Under the pieces are notes generated by a model, which made no database searches, was not told the origin of the DNA, and saw only the letters and a program-made list of their open reading frames with translations. From Candidatus Enterococcus ferrettii (GTDB lineage: Bacteria; Bacillota; Bacilli; Lactobacillales; Enterococcaceae), in contig NZ_JAFREL010000074.1 in the NCBI RefSeq assembly GCF_017377655.1, positions 27,542 to 91,541 of the forward strand: 64,000 bases of DNA, written 5' to 3'. The position numbers and the translations under genes were made by a program. Shown here piece by piece: positions 15,961 to 57,450 of the stretch (position 1 is the stretch's first letter; every line of letters begins with the position of its first letter).

Positions 15961-16221
15961 AAAATACAGGTTAAACAAAAGAGTAGTAACATGATTTTCT
16001 CTTTTCAGAGAGCTGATGGTGCTGTGAATCAGTAAGGAAAATGATGCGAATGGACTTTTGAACCGAGATTTTGAAGTAAGTAGGAATCTCCGGGAACTCC
16101 CGTTACAGAGAAAGGCTGTTGTTAGACAGCTGACAGAGATGCTTTTTAAGCATATATTGAGGTGGCACCGTGGATTAACCGCCCTCAAATTGGATAGTTG
16201 TCCGATTTGAGGGCTTTTTTT
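15961..16221 (+). promoter_or_regulatory. T-box riboswitch 1 of the trp operon (Trp specifier)
   Basis: The Stem I region contains AGAGA and the putative UGG specifier codon at 16051-16053 in GAATGGACTT. The conserved T-box AGGTGGCACCG lies at 16160-16170, and the terminator GCCCTCAAAT/ATTTGAGGGC with T residues at 16181-16221. Uncharged tRNA-Trp would pair with the specifier and with UGGC in the T-box, forming the antiterminator. UGGC pairs fully with a tRNA that has discriminator G. Confidence 0.9.
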
Positions 16222-42309: not shown

Positions 42310-42440
42310 AAAAGGGCGTCACCTTAAAAAAGGGGACGCCCATCAATTTTATCTTAGACTTGCTTCCCTCCGACGGTGTTAACCAACAGGTTCTAAGGGT
42401 CAGGTTTTACCTTCTCAACGCTAAGCGTCCCCCCGCAAAA
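42310..42440 (-). promoter_or_regulatory. TPP riboswitch of thiD (THI element)
   Basis: On the minus strand the aptamer runs from about 42440 down to 42361, with CGTTGAGAAGGT, ACCTGACCC, then GTTAACACCGTCGGAGGGAA, which are the conserved TPP elements. A hairpin GGGCGTC/GACGCCC (42314-42341) with T residues follows as terminator. TPP binding would end transcription. Confidence 0.92.
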
Positions 42441-42523
42441 AAATATTCAGTTAATCGTCACAGCTGCGCAGTTCTAATACAACTTATCTAATGGTATAAC
42501 AAAAGGAGCAGTAGAACAAGTTC

Positions 42524-51776: not shown

Positions 51777-51805
51777 TTGACCAGTAAATGATTTCTTGTT
51801 ATAGT
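51777..51805 (+). promoter_or_regulatory. Promoter of Lsa-type ABC-F gene
   Basis: TTGACC at 51777-51782 and TATAGT at 51800-51805 lie 17 bases apart. Transcription should begin about 275 bases upstream of the coding start. Confidence 0.75.
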
Positions 51806-51831
51806 GAAAGTACAGAAAGTGAGGGATCCCG

Positions 51832-51852
51832 ATGCGTAATTTCACCAAATAA
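51832..51852 (+). CDS. Six-residue leader peptide MRNFTK
   Basis: GTGAGGG precedes ATG CGT AAT TTC ACC AAA TAA in the leader of the ABC-F gene. Its last codons (TTCACCAA, 51841-51848) can pair exactly with TTGGTGAA (51919-51926). Leaders of this kind let antibiotic-stalled ribosomes switch attenuation on for ABC-F genes. Confidence 0.6.
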   Translation: MRNFTK

Positions 51853-52012
51853 AGTAGAAGCTGCATTCAGACTGTACCGTGGATTGACCAAGGGAGCAGT
51901 GTGCAGGTTTTCGAACAATTGGTGAATGTAGTAAAGAGGGAATCCTTTTAAGACGATCTTTGTAGCAAATGTTTGCTGCAAATTTTCGGTTCTATTTATT
52001 GTGGATCAGCTC

Positions 52013-52048
52013 AACCGCCAGTTGTCGAAAAGAACTGACGGTTTTTTT
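52013..52048 (+). terminator. Leader terminator of ABC-F gene
   Basis: An 11-base stem with one mismatch is followed by seven T. It lies before the gene, so it functions as the off switch of the attenuator. Confidence 0.85.
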
Positions 52049-52085
52049 GACTTCTGGGAAGAAGTCGCTGCGAGGTGTTATCCAT

Positions 52086-53582
52086 ATGAGTAATATAATA
52101 ATGAATCACGTTACATTCGGTTACGATCAGTTAGGTACTCTTTTATTTGATGATGTACAGCTGATTGTTGATGAGCAATGGAAGCTGGGATTAGTCGGCC
52201 GTAATGGACGTGGCAAGACCACTTTATTGAAATTGTTGCAAAATCAATTACCCTACCGAGGTACGATTGATCACACGATGAATTTTGTTTATTTTCCTTT
52301 GAGTATCGCTGATCCGAGCCAGCTGACTTATTATGCACTGTTGGAGCAGGGGGATTTTGAAATTTGGCAATTGGAACGAGAGTTGAACTTATTGGCCTGT
52401 GATCCAGAAGTATTGTGGCGGCCGTTTCAATCTTTATCTGGTGGGGAGCAAACCAAAGTTCTGCTGGCGATGCTGTTCACCGAGGAACATTGCTTTCCAC
52501 TTATTGATGAGCCGACCAATCATTTAGATATTTTAGGGCGTCAACAGGTAGCAAAGTATTTACGGAAAAAGAAGCAGGGCTATATTTTGGTTAGTCATGA
52601 TCGGCAGTTTTTGGATGAAACGGTGGATCATATTTTGGCAATTGAGAAAAGCCAACTGATACTATATCAGGGGAATTTTTCCATTTATGAAGAACAAAAG
52701 GCGCAAAAAGATGCTTTTGAGCAGGCACAAAATAGTAAGCTAAAAAAAGAAATTGCTCGTCTGCAGCAAACCGCTAGGGAAAAAGCAGCTTGGTCTGCTT
52801 CGCGTGAAACCGATAAACTGAACAAATCTAAAGGGTTCATTGATACAGAATATCGTCGGGTAAGTCCTGGAGCAATCGGCGCGGATGCTGCCCGAATGAT
52901 GAAAAGGTCCAAGGCAATTTTACAGCGTGTAGAAACTCAAATCGGTGAAAAGGAGCAGTTGCTGAAGAATATTGAAACAGTAGACGGTCTTTCGATGAAT
53001 TGGCAACCTAGTCATCATCGTCGGTTGATTCAAGTAGAAAATCTACGGCTAGCTTATGATGAGCATCTGCTTTTTGAGAATGTTTGTTTTGAGTTGAATC
53101 ATGGCGATTGTTTGGCAGTCACTGGCAAGAATGGTAGTGGAAAAAGTGCTTTAGTACAAGCTTTATTGGGGACATTTACCGGTGAGTGTTTTGGCAAAGT
53201 TTTTTTACCTAAGGGTCTGACTATTAGTTACGTGCGACAAAAATACGAAGACAATCAAGGCACTTTAACAGATTTTGCATTACAAGAAGGGCTAGATTAT
53301 CCAATGTTTTTAAATAATCTCCATAAGTTGGGAATGGAACGTAATGTCTTTGAAAATCGAATTGAGCAGATGAGCATGGGGCAGCGAAAAAAGGTTGAGT
53401 TGGCCAAATCGCTTTCTCAGCCATCAGATATTTATCTTTGGGATGAACCTCTGAATTATTTAGATGTCTTTAATCAACAGCAGATTATTCAATTGCTGCA
53501 GCGGATTCACCCAACTATACTGATGATTGAGCATGACCAGCATTTTATTGAGGCAGTTAGTACTAAACGGTTAGGATTGTAA
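52086..53582 (+). CDS. Lsa-family ABC-F ribosomal protection protein
   Basis: This 498-residue ABC-F protein, the same length as enterococcal Lsa(A), is very similar to it along its length. It has two ATPase domains: Walker A GRNGRGKTT at 38, signature LSGGEQTKVLLAML and Walker B PLIDEPTNHLD; and GKNGSGKSA, MSMGQRKKVELAKSL and YLWDEPLNYLD. The linker (about 195-300) is the antibiotic-resistance domain. Lsa proteins bind stalled ribosomes and dislodge lincosamides, streptogramin A and pleuromutilins. I chose ATG 52086, preceded by GAGGTG; the in-frame region upstream is the attenuator. No transmembrane segments. Confidence 0.9.
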   Translation: MSNIIMNHVTFGYDQLGTLLFDDVQLIVDEQWKLGLVGRNGRGKTTLLKLLQNQLPYRGTIDHTMNFVYFPLSIADPSQLTYYALLEQGDFEIWQLERELNLLACDPEVLWRPFQSLSGGEQTKVLLAMLFTEEHCFPLIDEPTNHLDILGRQQVAKYLRKKKQGYILVSHDRQFLDETVDHILAIEKSQLILYQGNFSIYEEQKAQKDAFEQAQNSKLKKEIARLQQTAREKAAWSASRETDKLNKSKGFIDTEYRRVSPGAIGADAARMMKRSKAILQRVETQIGEKEQLLKNIETVDGLSMNWQPSHHRRLIQVENLRLAYDEHLLFENVCFELNHGDCLAVTGKNGSGKSALVQALLGTFTGECFGKVFLPKGLTISYVRQKYEDNQGTLTDFALQEGLDYPMFLNNLHKLGMERNVFENRIEQMSMGQRKKVELAKSLSQPSDIYLWDEPLNYLDVFNQQQIIQLLQRIHPTILMIEHDQHFIEAVSTKRLGL

Positions 53583-53877: not shown

Positions 53878-54180
53878 ATGAATTTAGTAGCGCGAGAACA
53901 AGAAAAATTGATGATTGTGGTTGCTGCCGACGTAGCTCGCCGCAGAAAAAGTCGAGGGTTGAAGTTGAATCACCCGGAATCGATCGCTTTGATTACTTAT
54001 GAAGTAATGGAGGGAGCCCGTGATGGGAAAAGTGTTGCAGAATTAATGACTTATGGTGCCACCATTTTATCAGTAGAGGACGTCATGGAAGGAATTCCTG
54101 AGATGATTCATGATATCCAGGTAGAGGCTACCTTTCCAGATGGGACAAAGTTGGTTACAGTCCATAATCCAATCCGCTAG
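53878..54180 (+). CDS. ureA: Urease gamma subunit
   Basis: The 100-residue gamma subunit of nickel urease. [47 protein letters not shown] and [34 protein letters not shown] cover the family almost without gaps. AAGGAGGAACTAG precedes the ATG. It starts the operon; the gap of 100 bases to ureB is the largest in it. Confidence 0.97.
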
Positions 54181-54280
54181 CTCCTTTTTCTGTATTAAGA
54201 GAAACAAGGATAGGACGTCGCAATTAGATAAGCAAATTATTAATTTTAGTAAGTTCAGTTAAAAATCGAGGAGGATGTTT

Positions 54281-54604
54281 ATGAAACCCGGAGAAATTAT
54301 TGTTGGTACTGAACCGATTCAATGCAATATTGGCCGTGAAACTAAGCAGATTGCCGTAACAAATACTGGGGATCGTCCAGTACAAATTGGTTCCCATTAT
54401 CATTTTTTTGAAGTGAATAGTGCACTGCGATTTGATCGCAAAGCGGCCTATGGTTTTCGCTTAAACATTCCGGCAGGAGTCGCAGTTCGTTTTGAACCTC
54501 AAGATGAGAAGACTGTCGAGTTAGTGGCGCTAGCAGGTAAGCGGGAAGTTTACGGCTTGAATGCAAAGACGAATGGTCCATTGGATAAGGAGGGAATTAG
54601 ATGA
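54281..54604 (+). CDS. ureB: Urease beta subunit
   Basis: The 107-residue beta subunit. [68 protein letters not shown] and [16 protein letters not shown] are family signatures. GAGGAGG at 54268-54274 gives a proper 6-base spacer to ATG 54281; ATG 54275 would follow directly. It overlaps ureC by ATGA. Confidence 0.96.
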
Positions 54605-56313
54605 GTTTAGAAATATCGCGTAAACAATATGCAGAATTATATGGACCAACTGTCGGCGATAAAGTGCGTTTAGCAGACACAGATTTGTTTATTAAAATTG
54701 AAAAGGACTACACTACATATGGTGAAGAAGTAGTCTTTGGTGGTGGCAAGGTCATTCGTGAAGGCATGGGGATGGACCCGTTAATCACTCGTGATGGTGG
54801 AGCGCCTGATTTGGTAATTACTAATGCGACGATTGTTGATTACAGTGGCGTTATTAAAGCTGACGTTGCTATTAAGGATGGAAAAATTTCAGCAATTGGC
54901 AAAGCTGGTAATTCATTCATCATGGATAATGTTGCTATTCCAATTGGCGCAGCAACCGAAATTATAGCAGGAGAAAATAAAATTTTAACAGCTGGTGGAA
55001 TAGATACTCATATTCATTTTATTTCTCCTCAGCAAGTTGATTCAGCTTTGCATAATGGTGTAACTACCATGATTGGTGGTGGAACCGGACCAGCAGAAGG
55101 AACCAATGCCACGACGGTTACTCCGGGTGCCTGGAATTTGGAGCGGATGCTGCAGGCAGCCGATGGTTTGCCAGTCAATCTAGGTTTTTTAGGTAAAGGT
55201 CAGGCAGCGATTGAAGCACCGCTAGCTGAACAAATTGAAGCTGGCGCGATCGGATTGAAGATTCACGAAGACTGGGGGACGACTTTCTCAGCGATTCAAC
55301 ATTCTTTAGAAGTAGCTGACAAATATGATGTCCAAGTAGCAATTCACACGGATACTTTAAACGAAACAGGCTTTGTGGAACGGACGATTGAAGCTTTCGG
55401 CGATCGGGTAATCCACACCTATCATACGGAAGGGGCTGGTGGGGGACATGCACCAGACATCATCAAGATTGCCGGTCAGCCAAATGTGTTGCCCTCTTCT
55501 ACCAATCCAACTATGCCTTATACTGTCAACACGGTTGATGAACATCTGGATATGCTGATGGTGTGCCATCATCTGAATCCTGATATTCCTGAAGATTTAG
55601 CCTTTGCTGATTCGCGGATACGTAAAGAAACAATTGCTGCTGAAGACGTGCTGCATGATATGGGAATTTTCAGCATGATGAGTTCTGATTCTCAGGCGAT
55701 GGGGCGGGTCGGTGAAGTGGTGACCCGTACTTGGCAAACCGCCGATAAAATGAAAAAACAGCGAGGACCACTGACAGAAGATGCTGAAGGCAACGATAAT
55801 TTTAGAGTGAAACGCTATATTGCCAAATATACGATTAATCCAGCAATTACTCATGGGATTGCTGATTATGTCGGCTCAGTAGAAGTGGGAAAAATTGCTG
55901 ATCTAGTCTTGTGGGATCCGGCCTTTTTTGGAGTAAAACCTAGCAAAATTTTGAAAAACGGGATGATTGCAGTAGCACAAATGGGCGATCCTAATGCCTC
56001 AATTCCAACGCCGCAACCTGTTTTTTACCGGGAAATGTTTGGCAGTTTGGGTACGGCTTTAGAGAAAAGCTCTTTTACCTTTGTCTCCCAAGCCGCCCAA
56101 GAGAAGAATATTAAAGAAAAATATCAGCTAAAAAAAGAAACCTTACCTGTTAAGGGGGTACGAAAGCTGACAAAAAAAGATATGAAATTTAATGGTGAAA
56201 CGCCTGAAATTACTGTTGATCCACAAACCTATGAAGTGACCGTAAATGGTCAAGTGGTGACTAGCGAAGCAGCCGAAGTCTTGCCGTTAGCACAAAAATA
56301 TTTCCTATTCTAA
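54601..56313 (+). CDS. ureC: Urease alpha subunit (catalytic)
   Basis: The 570-residue catalytic subunit hydrolyses urea to ammonia and carbamate with two nickel ions. The carbamylated Lys220 is in GLKIHEDWG, Ni ligands His in [10 protein letters not shown] and [10 protein letters not shown], the flap Cys322 and His323 in [12 protein letters not shown], and Asp363 in [11 protein letters not shown]. The numbering matches Sporosarcina pasteurii UreC. All active residues are present, so the enzyme should work. Length is standard. Confidence 0.98.
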
Positions 56314-56324
56314 GGAGTGATTCC

Positions 56325-56777
56325 ATGATCGTAAAAGAAATCATTGGTAACATTAACAGCTATCCAGCAGCTGAAAGTAAAACCAAAGACTGGATAGCTA
56401 TAGAAAATGAAGCACTAGCTAAGCGGGTACATCATTTGAATACAGCAAAAAATGGTGAAGTAAGTGTACGTTTGGCACCTGGAAAGCACCTGCATGTGGG
56501 TGATATTTTGGCCGAAACGGAGGATACCTTAGTGGTAGTGGATGTCTTACCAGAGGATGTTTTAGTGATCAAACCGAACGCCATCCATGAGATGGGTTTT
56601 ATTGCCCATGAATTAGGCAATCGGCACTTGCCTGCTCAGTTTATCGACGACACAATGGTGGTGCAATATGATTATCTAATCGAGCACCTGCTGGAACACA
56701 AAAGTATGAGCTTTGAGCGCAAACATGTAAAAATGCCACATCCATTCCGACACATCGGACATAGCCATGATCACTAA
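56325..56777 (+). CDS. ureE: Urease accessory protein UreE (nickel chaperone)
   Basis: This 150-residue nickel metallochaperone has the peptide-binding N-terminal domain (VKEIIGNINSY) and the metal-binding domain (LPEDVLVIKPNAIHEMGFIAHELGNRHLPAQF near 83-115) with the conserved His in GNRHLPAQ. A short His tail (HIGHSHDH) follows, less rich than in enteric bacteria. AAGGAGTG precedes the ATG. Its end overlaps ureF by 11 bases. Confidence 0.95.
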   Translation: MIVKEIIGNINSYPAAESKTKDWIAIENEALAKRVHHLNTAKNGEVSVRLAPGKHLHVGDILAETEDTLVVVDVLPEDVLVIKPNAIHEMGFIAHELGNRHLPAQFIDDTMVVQYDYLIEHLLEHKSMSFERKHVKMPHPFRHIGHSHDH

Positions 56778-57450
56778 CCTGTTTCTCTTCCAAATGAACG
56801 ATTCCAATTTTCCGATTGGTTCGTTTAGTCATTCTTATGGCTTTGAAACCTATTTACAGCAGAATCGAATTCAAAATGCGGAAGCCTTTGAGTTATGGCT
56901 GAAGCAGTTTCTCAACAACCAAATTTTATCCACTGATGGGTTAGCTATTCGTATTGTTTTTGAAGCTTTGGAGAAGAAAAGTTTGACAGAGGTTTTAGCG
57001 GTTAATGTTGAATTGAATGCACTGCTTTTACCAAGTGAAATGCGACAGGCTAACAAAAAGATGGGTCAGCAGTTTTTAAATATTGGTAATAGTCTGATGG
57101 ATGACTCCTTGCTGAAGCATTACCAGCTGCGATTAAAGGAGCAGCAGCTAGCACCTCATCCAGCAATTGTTTTTGGATTACTGGCCTATTGTTCGCAGGC
57201 TGAGGTTACAGAAACTTTGTCTGTGTATCTACTGAATACTACGATTACCTTGGTACAAAATGCTGTACGGGGAGTACCGATTGGCCAAGTGGCTGGACAA
57301 AAAATTATTTATGCAGTGTCACAGGAGATTCCTCAACTGACTGAAGCAATTCTTACTATGCCGCTGGATCATTTTGGTGCTACTGCACCGGGAATTGAAA
57401 TTTCCCAAATGCAGCATGAGTTTTTGTTTGCCCGCAATTTCATGTCTTAG
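56767..57450 (+). CDS. ureF: Urease accessory protein UreF
   Basis: UreF, 227 residues, is the all-helical accessory protein that joins UreD and UreG in the activation complex. [22 protein letters not shown] near the N-terminus is the signature; [16 protein letters not shown] near 162-177 and [20 protein letters not shown] near the C-terminus fit. No separate ribosome site is seen, and translation is coupled to ureE. Confidence 0.93.

Follow-up and report, generated by a model that had tools for sequence, protein, structure and literature searches.

The window, a 64,000-nucleotide stretch of Candidatus Enterococcus ferrettii DNA, carries an Lsa-type ABC-F gene behind a leader with a short upstream ORF (uORF), which raises the question of whether, and through which RNA structures, translation of this uORF governs the gene. 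A preliminary description had proposed a ribosome-mediated attenuator composed of a promoter, an MRNFTK mini-ORF, alternative pairings and a terminator.

An Lsa-type ABC-F gene preceded by a structured leader

The gene lies in a 5.4-Mb host genome (G000), whose genus is represented by 20 genomes in the comparison set. Its product aligns with positions 1–490 of the 492 positions of profile NF000167 at 731.5 bits, which misses the curated cut-off of 750, and we therefore name the gene Lsa-type rather than curated Lsa; a match to NF000355 reaches 473.9 bits. The nearest solved structure is Lsa(A) (PDB 7nhk; residues 1–496 aligned, E 5.3e-203), with the runner-up at E 3.2e-65. A second Lsa-type copy (L037), 60% identical and preceded by its own leader, is located on another contig of the same genome, and related genes with 59–60% identity are found in E. 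raffinosus and E. gilvus, which points to an avium-group Enterococcus. Six further own-genome matches (L038–L043) are other ABC proteins (E 1e-41 or weaker) and were left out of the leader survey, and six distant ABC-F genes from the contig scan (five Flavobacterium, one Limnohabitans; 23–25% identity) were set aside.

Directly 3′ of the gene lie ureA, ureB, ureC and accessory genes (53878–57450), which we take to be a urease operon. The large urease subunit gene is overlapped in antisense by a match to RF02514 (5′ ureB sRNA; 54760–55043, − strand, 88.5 bits); L008 matches the same family with 87.6 bits, and these matches may simply reflect conserved coding sequence. The whole-window Rfam scan at gathering scores, which also detected a T-box leader (15964–16189, + strand, 123.5 bits) and a TPP riboswitch (42347–42444, − strand, 58.3 bits), gave three matches, none of them inside the leader, and a relaxed scan of 51777–52086 gave a best E of 7.2.

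The features of the leader and gene are as follows, with the basis of each assignment in brackets.

51777..51805, + strand: promoter with −35 TTGACC (51777), 17-base spacer and extended −10 TATAGT with TG in front (10 of 12 consensus positions)
51821..51825, + strand: Shine–Dalgarno (SD) sequence GAGGG of the uORF, also within the P0 5′ strand (sequence)
51821..51830, + strand: P0 5′ strand, SD and spacer, pairing with 51938–51948 (folds; conserved in kind)
51832..51852, + strand: predicted uORF MRNFTK, ATG-CGT-AAT-TTC-ACC-AAA-TAA, AUG start and UAA stop (sequence; position shared with the short uORFs of relatives)
51841..51848, + strand: P1 5′ strand, uORF end TTCACCAA (pairing test, covariation, folds)
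51854..51912, + strand: P2 hairpin with strongly conserved sequence (alignment, covariation, folds)
51911..51924, + strand: antiterminator 5′ strand (pairing test, folds; by eye it extends to TTTT from 51908)
51919..51926, + strand: P1 3′ strand TTGGTGAA, overlapping the antiterminator strand (pairing test, covariation, folds)
51938..51949, + strand: P0 3′ strand and U-run, possible first terminator T1 (folds; only four U in the window)
52013..52048, + strand: intrinsic terminator T2, stem 52013–52023/52033–52043, then a U-run to 52048 (sequence, fold, terminators in relatives)
52016..52028, + strand: antiterminator 3′ strand, formed by the T2 5′ arm together with some of the loop (pairing test, folds; to 52031 by eye)
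52072..52077, + strand: SD sequence GAGGTG of the ABC-F gene (sequence; paired with 52007–52012 in the full-length fold)
52086..53582, + strand: Lsa-type (ARE3-like) ABC-F ribosomal protection protein, 498 aa (NCBIfam profiles, closest solved structure)

Direct reading confirmed the promoter, mini-ORF and terminator of the preliminary description, and the RNA folds beyond shuffled sequences, with z = −4.29 for the whole leader and z = −4.94 for the 5′ hairpin alone (51818–51952; 0/200 shuffles equally low in each case). The promoter is the top of nine promoter-like sites in the scan, and since 7.6 such sites are expected in shuffles, the site alone is no proof; similar promoters precede L008, L009 and L010 by eye. 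T2, whose stem contains one mismatch and closes a 9-base loop, is absent from the terminator scan list of the window, probably because the scan permits loops up to 8. A terminator-like hairpin that the scan did list, at 51959–51982, has something similar only in L008 by eye and was left out.

The leader defines an RNA family within the order

The leader is common to 40 of 41 oriented homologous genes, the exception being L028. Shared among these 40 leaders are, besides a short ORF, a GAGGGATC-like SD with an invariant GAGG and a core resembling GAAGCTGCAT...GTGTGCAGATTTTC, and the similarity continues into the downstream sequence. A covariance model built from them matches 78 of the 395 genomes sampled in the order, specifically 60/71 in the family of the window and 18 genomes in other families, as counted from a match table in which unmatched genomes are ranked by kinship and listed as far as those of the family. 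Samples of the class (5/348 genomes) and phylum (2/398) gave matches solely within the same order, under strict filters that lose weak matches. The preliminary description had overlooked this order-wide family.

Among the 100 leaders studied, 98 precede an Lsa-type gene. The other two, L076 (1501–1636, − strand) and L092 (2519–2645, − strand), belong to the same genus, are followed by no ABC-F gene and appear to be orphans; both keep the U-run at the P0 end and are candidates for relics or free-standing RNAs. The leaders of E. raffinosus (L129, 123 bits) and E. gilvus (L134, 119 bits) match the model strongly, and those of L028 (17.5 bits) and a plasmid gene of L. salivarius (L130, 16.1 bits) score weakly; mobile lsa(E) (L132), L. 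curvatus (L131) and Paenibacillus lsa (L133) gave no match up to E = 1. The L130 gene is a divergent Lsa-like gene (46% identity), and its upstream region has the same layout by eye, including a UUG-started MRL; judged from this sequence, the leader architecture may be more widespread than the sequence family. The model also weakly matched the opposite strand at 11 of 100 loci, because the hairpin is nearly palindromic. No match to the leader was found in Rfam and no description of it in the open-licence PMC literature.

Just 5′ of the promoters of second-copy genes, a conserved stretch of the approximate form CACTCC.GGGCGTAG...GGGGAAGC..CTACGTCC was seen by eye (L026, L034, L035, L036, L037, L045, L047, L048 and L053); in the three scanned, L026, L037 and L048, it had no Rfam match at the gathering score.

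A conserved long hairpin is predicted to enclose the uORF

The minimum-energy fold of the window leader includes the pairing of TTCACCAA (51841–51848) with TTGGTGAA (51919–51926), which bears out the proposal that the ORF end is paired, and in this fold the ORF end sequesters the antiterminator strand. Across the leaders we recognise three helices. In P0 the SD and spacer pair with a strand ending in a U-run, in P1 the end of the uORF pairs with the antiterminator strand, and P2 is a conserved inner hairpin. P0, which runs from the SD into the U-run, had likewise escaped the preliminary description. The uORF is enclosed in a predicted anti-antiterminator structure of the vmlR type.

Because the window clade is shifted by one column in the plain MAFFT alignment, RNAalifold returned only a weak consensus from it (−1.84 kcal/mol, 14 pairs); we therefore built the structure manually from the strand pairings and the alignment of 40 leaders, and covariation was counted on a model-fitted alignment. 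In 97 leaders (95 distinct rows), this alignment, which is fitted to the hand-set structure and so leans towards it, contains 164 two-sided changed cells against 45.8 ± 8.5 after shuffling, and its covariation score is 0.237 against 0.157 ± 0.004 when shuffled and 0.036–0.057 when slid. The mean pairing score in 40 leaders is higher for own than for swapped strands, both for P1 (26.4 vs 20.1) and for P0 (22.4 vs 18.0), although in many individual leaders a swapped strand can be found that scores as high as the own one, since relatives have strands in common.

A U-run of at least four closes P0 in 87 of 98 leaders and is missing from 11. At three P0 positions opposite SD guanines, G–U pairs occupy 71, 79 and 87 of the 95 rows. 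Because U is kept opposite these guanines though C would pair better, it is plausible, as far as sequence can tell, that the U-run closing P0 acts as a terminator, T1.

The antiterminator is predicted to compete with the long hairpin and with T2

Judged by pairing and conservation, the antiterminator strand has its conserved partner in T2, namely in the 5′ arm and the loop. The antiterminator strand pairs better with its own downstream region than with swapped ones (mean 29.3 vs 23.4, 40 leaders), and in 86 distinct leaders the score is 28.5 against 21.06 ± 0.42 in 2000 permutations, a comparison biased towards the own score by the choice of each target as the best own match.

We further folded RNAs ending just past the antiterminator target, a calculation that presupposes the attenuation model. 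The predicted antiterminator probability exceeds 0.5 in 1/98 leaders free of a ribosome. Centring a 31-nt footprint on the uORF start raises this count to 91/98, and placing an equal footprint inside P2 gives 14/98; the corresponding probabilities for the window are 0.01, 0.95 and 0.01. When the covered stretch is removed, the window RNA folds 51911–51924 with 52016–52028 and the T2 stem is lost. L010, from the window clade, forms the antiterminator without a ribosome (0.93). Seven of the 98 fail to form it even with the footprint in place (L034, L115, L029 at 0.48, L124, L104, L101 and L097), and in some of these, e.g. L034, the script seems to have chosen the wrong strand.

The predicted antiterminator and intrinsic terminator are mutually exclusive, with a mixed outcome in full-length minimum-energy folds, where at least half of the antiterminator forms in 1/98 leaders when free and in 52/98 with the footprint. 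In the other leaders, by this modelling, the antiterminator must form before the terminator is completed, or it fails altogether.

A model of ribosome-mediated attenuation

We consider it highly probable that the leader is a ribosome-mediated transcription attenuator of the Lsa-type ABC-F gene, and conservation and folding back the earlier reading of a uORF-controlled attenuator in this respect. Without drug, the uORF would be translated and vacated, and the leader would fold into one long hairpin in which P0 holds the SD and P1 the uORF end, together with P2. This hairpin would sequester the antiterminator strand, so that transcription stops at T2; T1 may perhaps already end it before T2. If a drug arrests the ribosome on the uORF start codon or immediately beyond it, the ribosome's footprint would mask the 5′ strand of P0 as well as that of P1, and the freed antiterminator strand could pair co-transcriptionally with T2, taking up its 5′ arm and loop. 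The resulting read-through into the ABC-F gene would yield a product that protects ribosomes. The elements and competing helices are supported by sequence and conservation; we infer that the region is transcribed and the uORF translated, which start codon serves, that ribosomes stall and with which drugs, the kinetic order of events, and that T1 is active. The modelled geometry fits drugs that stall ribosomes at or just after initiation.

It is unlikely that control is mainly translational, with the U-runs of lesser weight and the leader gating the ribosome binding site of the ABC-F gene. Such gating would accord with the full-length fold of the window, which pairs the SD at 52072–52077 with 52007–52012 and the start region at 52080–52086 with 52000–52006, with the analogous SD-sequestering stem in the part of the vmlR report consulted (PMC9226507), and with the terminator hairpin, which can beat the antiterminator in the full-length folds of 46/98 leaders. 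Against it, the own-versus-swapped pairing links the antiterminator to the terminator region, and T2 found by a strict search overlaps the antiterminator target in 70/98 leaders. Translational control at the gene's own SD is nevertheless possible in the folding model as a second layer beside attenuation.

Position rather than peptide appears to be conserved in the uORF

An SD and a short ORF, of which translation is predicted, occupy a conserved place in all 100 leaders. When the start is taken at this place, a choice made by us, 89 of the uORFs start with UUG and encode three residues (one encodes two), most often MKN (49), MKK (10) or MKI (9), and the other 11 start with AUG and encode six or seven residues. 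Alternative starts exist for some of the 89 UUG uORFs: 6 bases upstream and in frame, there is an AUG in 15 and a UUG in one, and 5 bases upstream but out of frame, a GUG or AUG in 24. In a quick tree of 95 of the 98 ABC-F proteins, the 11 leaders with AUG uORFs form one branch with support 100 and require one change, and the AUG hexapeptide type of the window is therefore probably derived, as judged from sequence.

Counted from the SD, the helix TTCAYC of the window clade is 20 bases away, and the AUG is at 11 (MRNFTK, MRYFTK) or at 12 (MIDSSVK, MFYSSMK); the same RNA helix is therefore read in two frames. This suggests that the position of the RNA is conserved, not the peptide sequence. The P1 5′ strand of the window comprises uORF bases +10 to +17, nearly all of which would be masked by a ribosome halted on the start codon, given the 16-nucleotide toeprint distance measured for vmlR.

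The AUG peptides always contain Ser or Thr (11/11), and Ala, Ser or Thr occurs in 0/89 of the di- and tripeptides. Ribosome stalling by phenicols and oxazolidinones depends on an Ala/Ser/Thr context. We give little weight to a combined scenario in which the hairpin is itself a terminator, one stall opening two in series, and the AUG clade has gained an Ala/Ser/Thr-dependent response to phenicols or oxazolidinones atop an ancestral one; the Ser/Thr pattern may be simple inheritance, because the 11 share one tree origin, or a by-product of P1 pairing.

Nascent-chain arrest with a particular drug is known from erm leader peptides, and the preliminary description had placed weight on the peptide MRNFTK. 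That this nascent chain itself arrests with a particular drug would agree with its identity in the window and L008 and with the similar MRYFTK, MRKFTN and MRTFTN, but we regard a peptide-specific sensor as very unlikely: the clade helix is read in the other frame as MIDSSVK and MFYSSMK, and the di- and tripeptides of the 89 UUG leaders, varied at residues 2 and 3, are presumably too short for an exit-tunnel motif. The least credible reading, a two-state switch in which TTGGTGAATGTAG pairs with either the ORF end or CTGCATTCA, can be drawn in the window, where the pairing of TGAATGTAG with CTGCATTCA scores 20, but that pairing drops to 9–13 in the clade's remaining 10 leaders, and the conserved structure is P2, which uses the same CTGCA strand. 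The kind of attenuator, P1 and the terminator thus stand from the preliminary description, whereas its second pairing and the importance of its peptide do not.

The leader of Enterococcus faecalis lsa(A)

L023 corresponds to E. faecalis lsa(A) (identity 0.99 with PDB 7nhk across a stretch of 84 residues), and its leader scores 77.4 bits in the covariance model. The uORF in this leader, at −183, is a UUG-started MKI, and −247 marks the TTGACA of a predicted promoter. The available part of a published survey, which searched 300 nt, gives the LsaA uORF consensus as MAGN (PMC10201436). In the 420 bases upstream of L023, the sole xAGN ORF on the gene strand lies at −325, before the predicted promoter. 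If this is the right MAGN, the sequence suggests that the regulatory uORF of lsa(A) is the tripeptide MKI, not MAGN; because the published search covered 300 nt, its MAGN may be another ORF than that at −325. The 56-aa N-terminal extension of lsaE, as given in the portion of the report consulted (PMC5916979), is a separate matter from the leader uORF.

LsaA of E. faecalis is described, in the section of the vmlR report used here, as a chromosomal intrinsic-resistance factor (PMC9226507). If the leader controls lsa(A), this intrinsic resistance would be inducible via a conserved RNA element that matched no Rfam model, and the uORF of interest would be a UUG-started tripeptide rather than MAGN. 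Additionally, comparison of the tripeptide and hexapeptide clades makes the determinants of drug spectrum directly testable.

Comparison with known ABC-F leaders

The leader resembles that of Listeria lmo0919/vgaL, which a review presents as a lincomycin-responsive transcription attenuator of an ABC-F gene (PMC5418344), and that of Streptomyces are5sc (uORF MLV), in which a UUG-started tripeptide uORF precedes an ABC-F gene. Both were compared by description; lmo0919/vgaL belongs to another ABC-F subfamily, and are5sc to another subfamily and phylum. The published LsaA uORF MAGN concerns the same gene family, according to the part of the source available (PMC10201436).

Experimental work has established attenuation, with a translational part, for Clostridioides cplR (uORF MR[I/M]), where, within the passages considered, a short uORF governs an ABC-F gene through transcription and translation attenuation, much as proposed for the present leader (PMC10201436). 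Unlike the cplR terminator hairpin, which those passages describe as holding the gene SD (PMC10201436), T2 ends before the SD at 52072–52077.

uORF attenuation has also been established experimentally for B. subtilis vmlR (uORF MIN), where the part of the report consulted describes NusG-dependent RNA polymerase pausing and a start-codon stall with a toeprint 16 nucleotides downstream (PMC9226507). As described there, the vmlR leader and the present one have in common an SD, a tripeptide uORF, predicted in our case, in an anti-antiterminator hairpin, an antiterminator, an intrinsic terminator, a possible SD-sequestering stem and a PLSA-protecting ABC-F gene, and one of the 100 leaders (L111) likewise encodes MIN. 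In contrast, the vmlR uORF SD is reported in that part to be single-stranded, whereas here the SD lies in P0, whose 3′ strand continues as a U-run; 89 of the 100 uORFs here start with UUG; and our model (R1), in the class and phylum samples, matches only the order of the window, the vmlR leader being compared by description. The sequence family has no counterpart in Rfam or in the open-licence PMC papers searched, and the probable kind of attenuator is one already established for vmlR.
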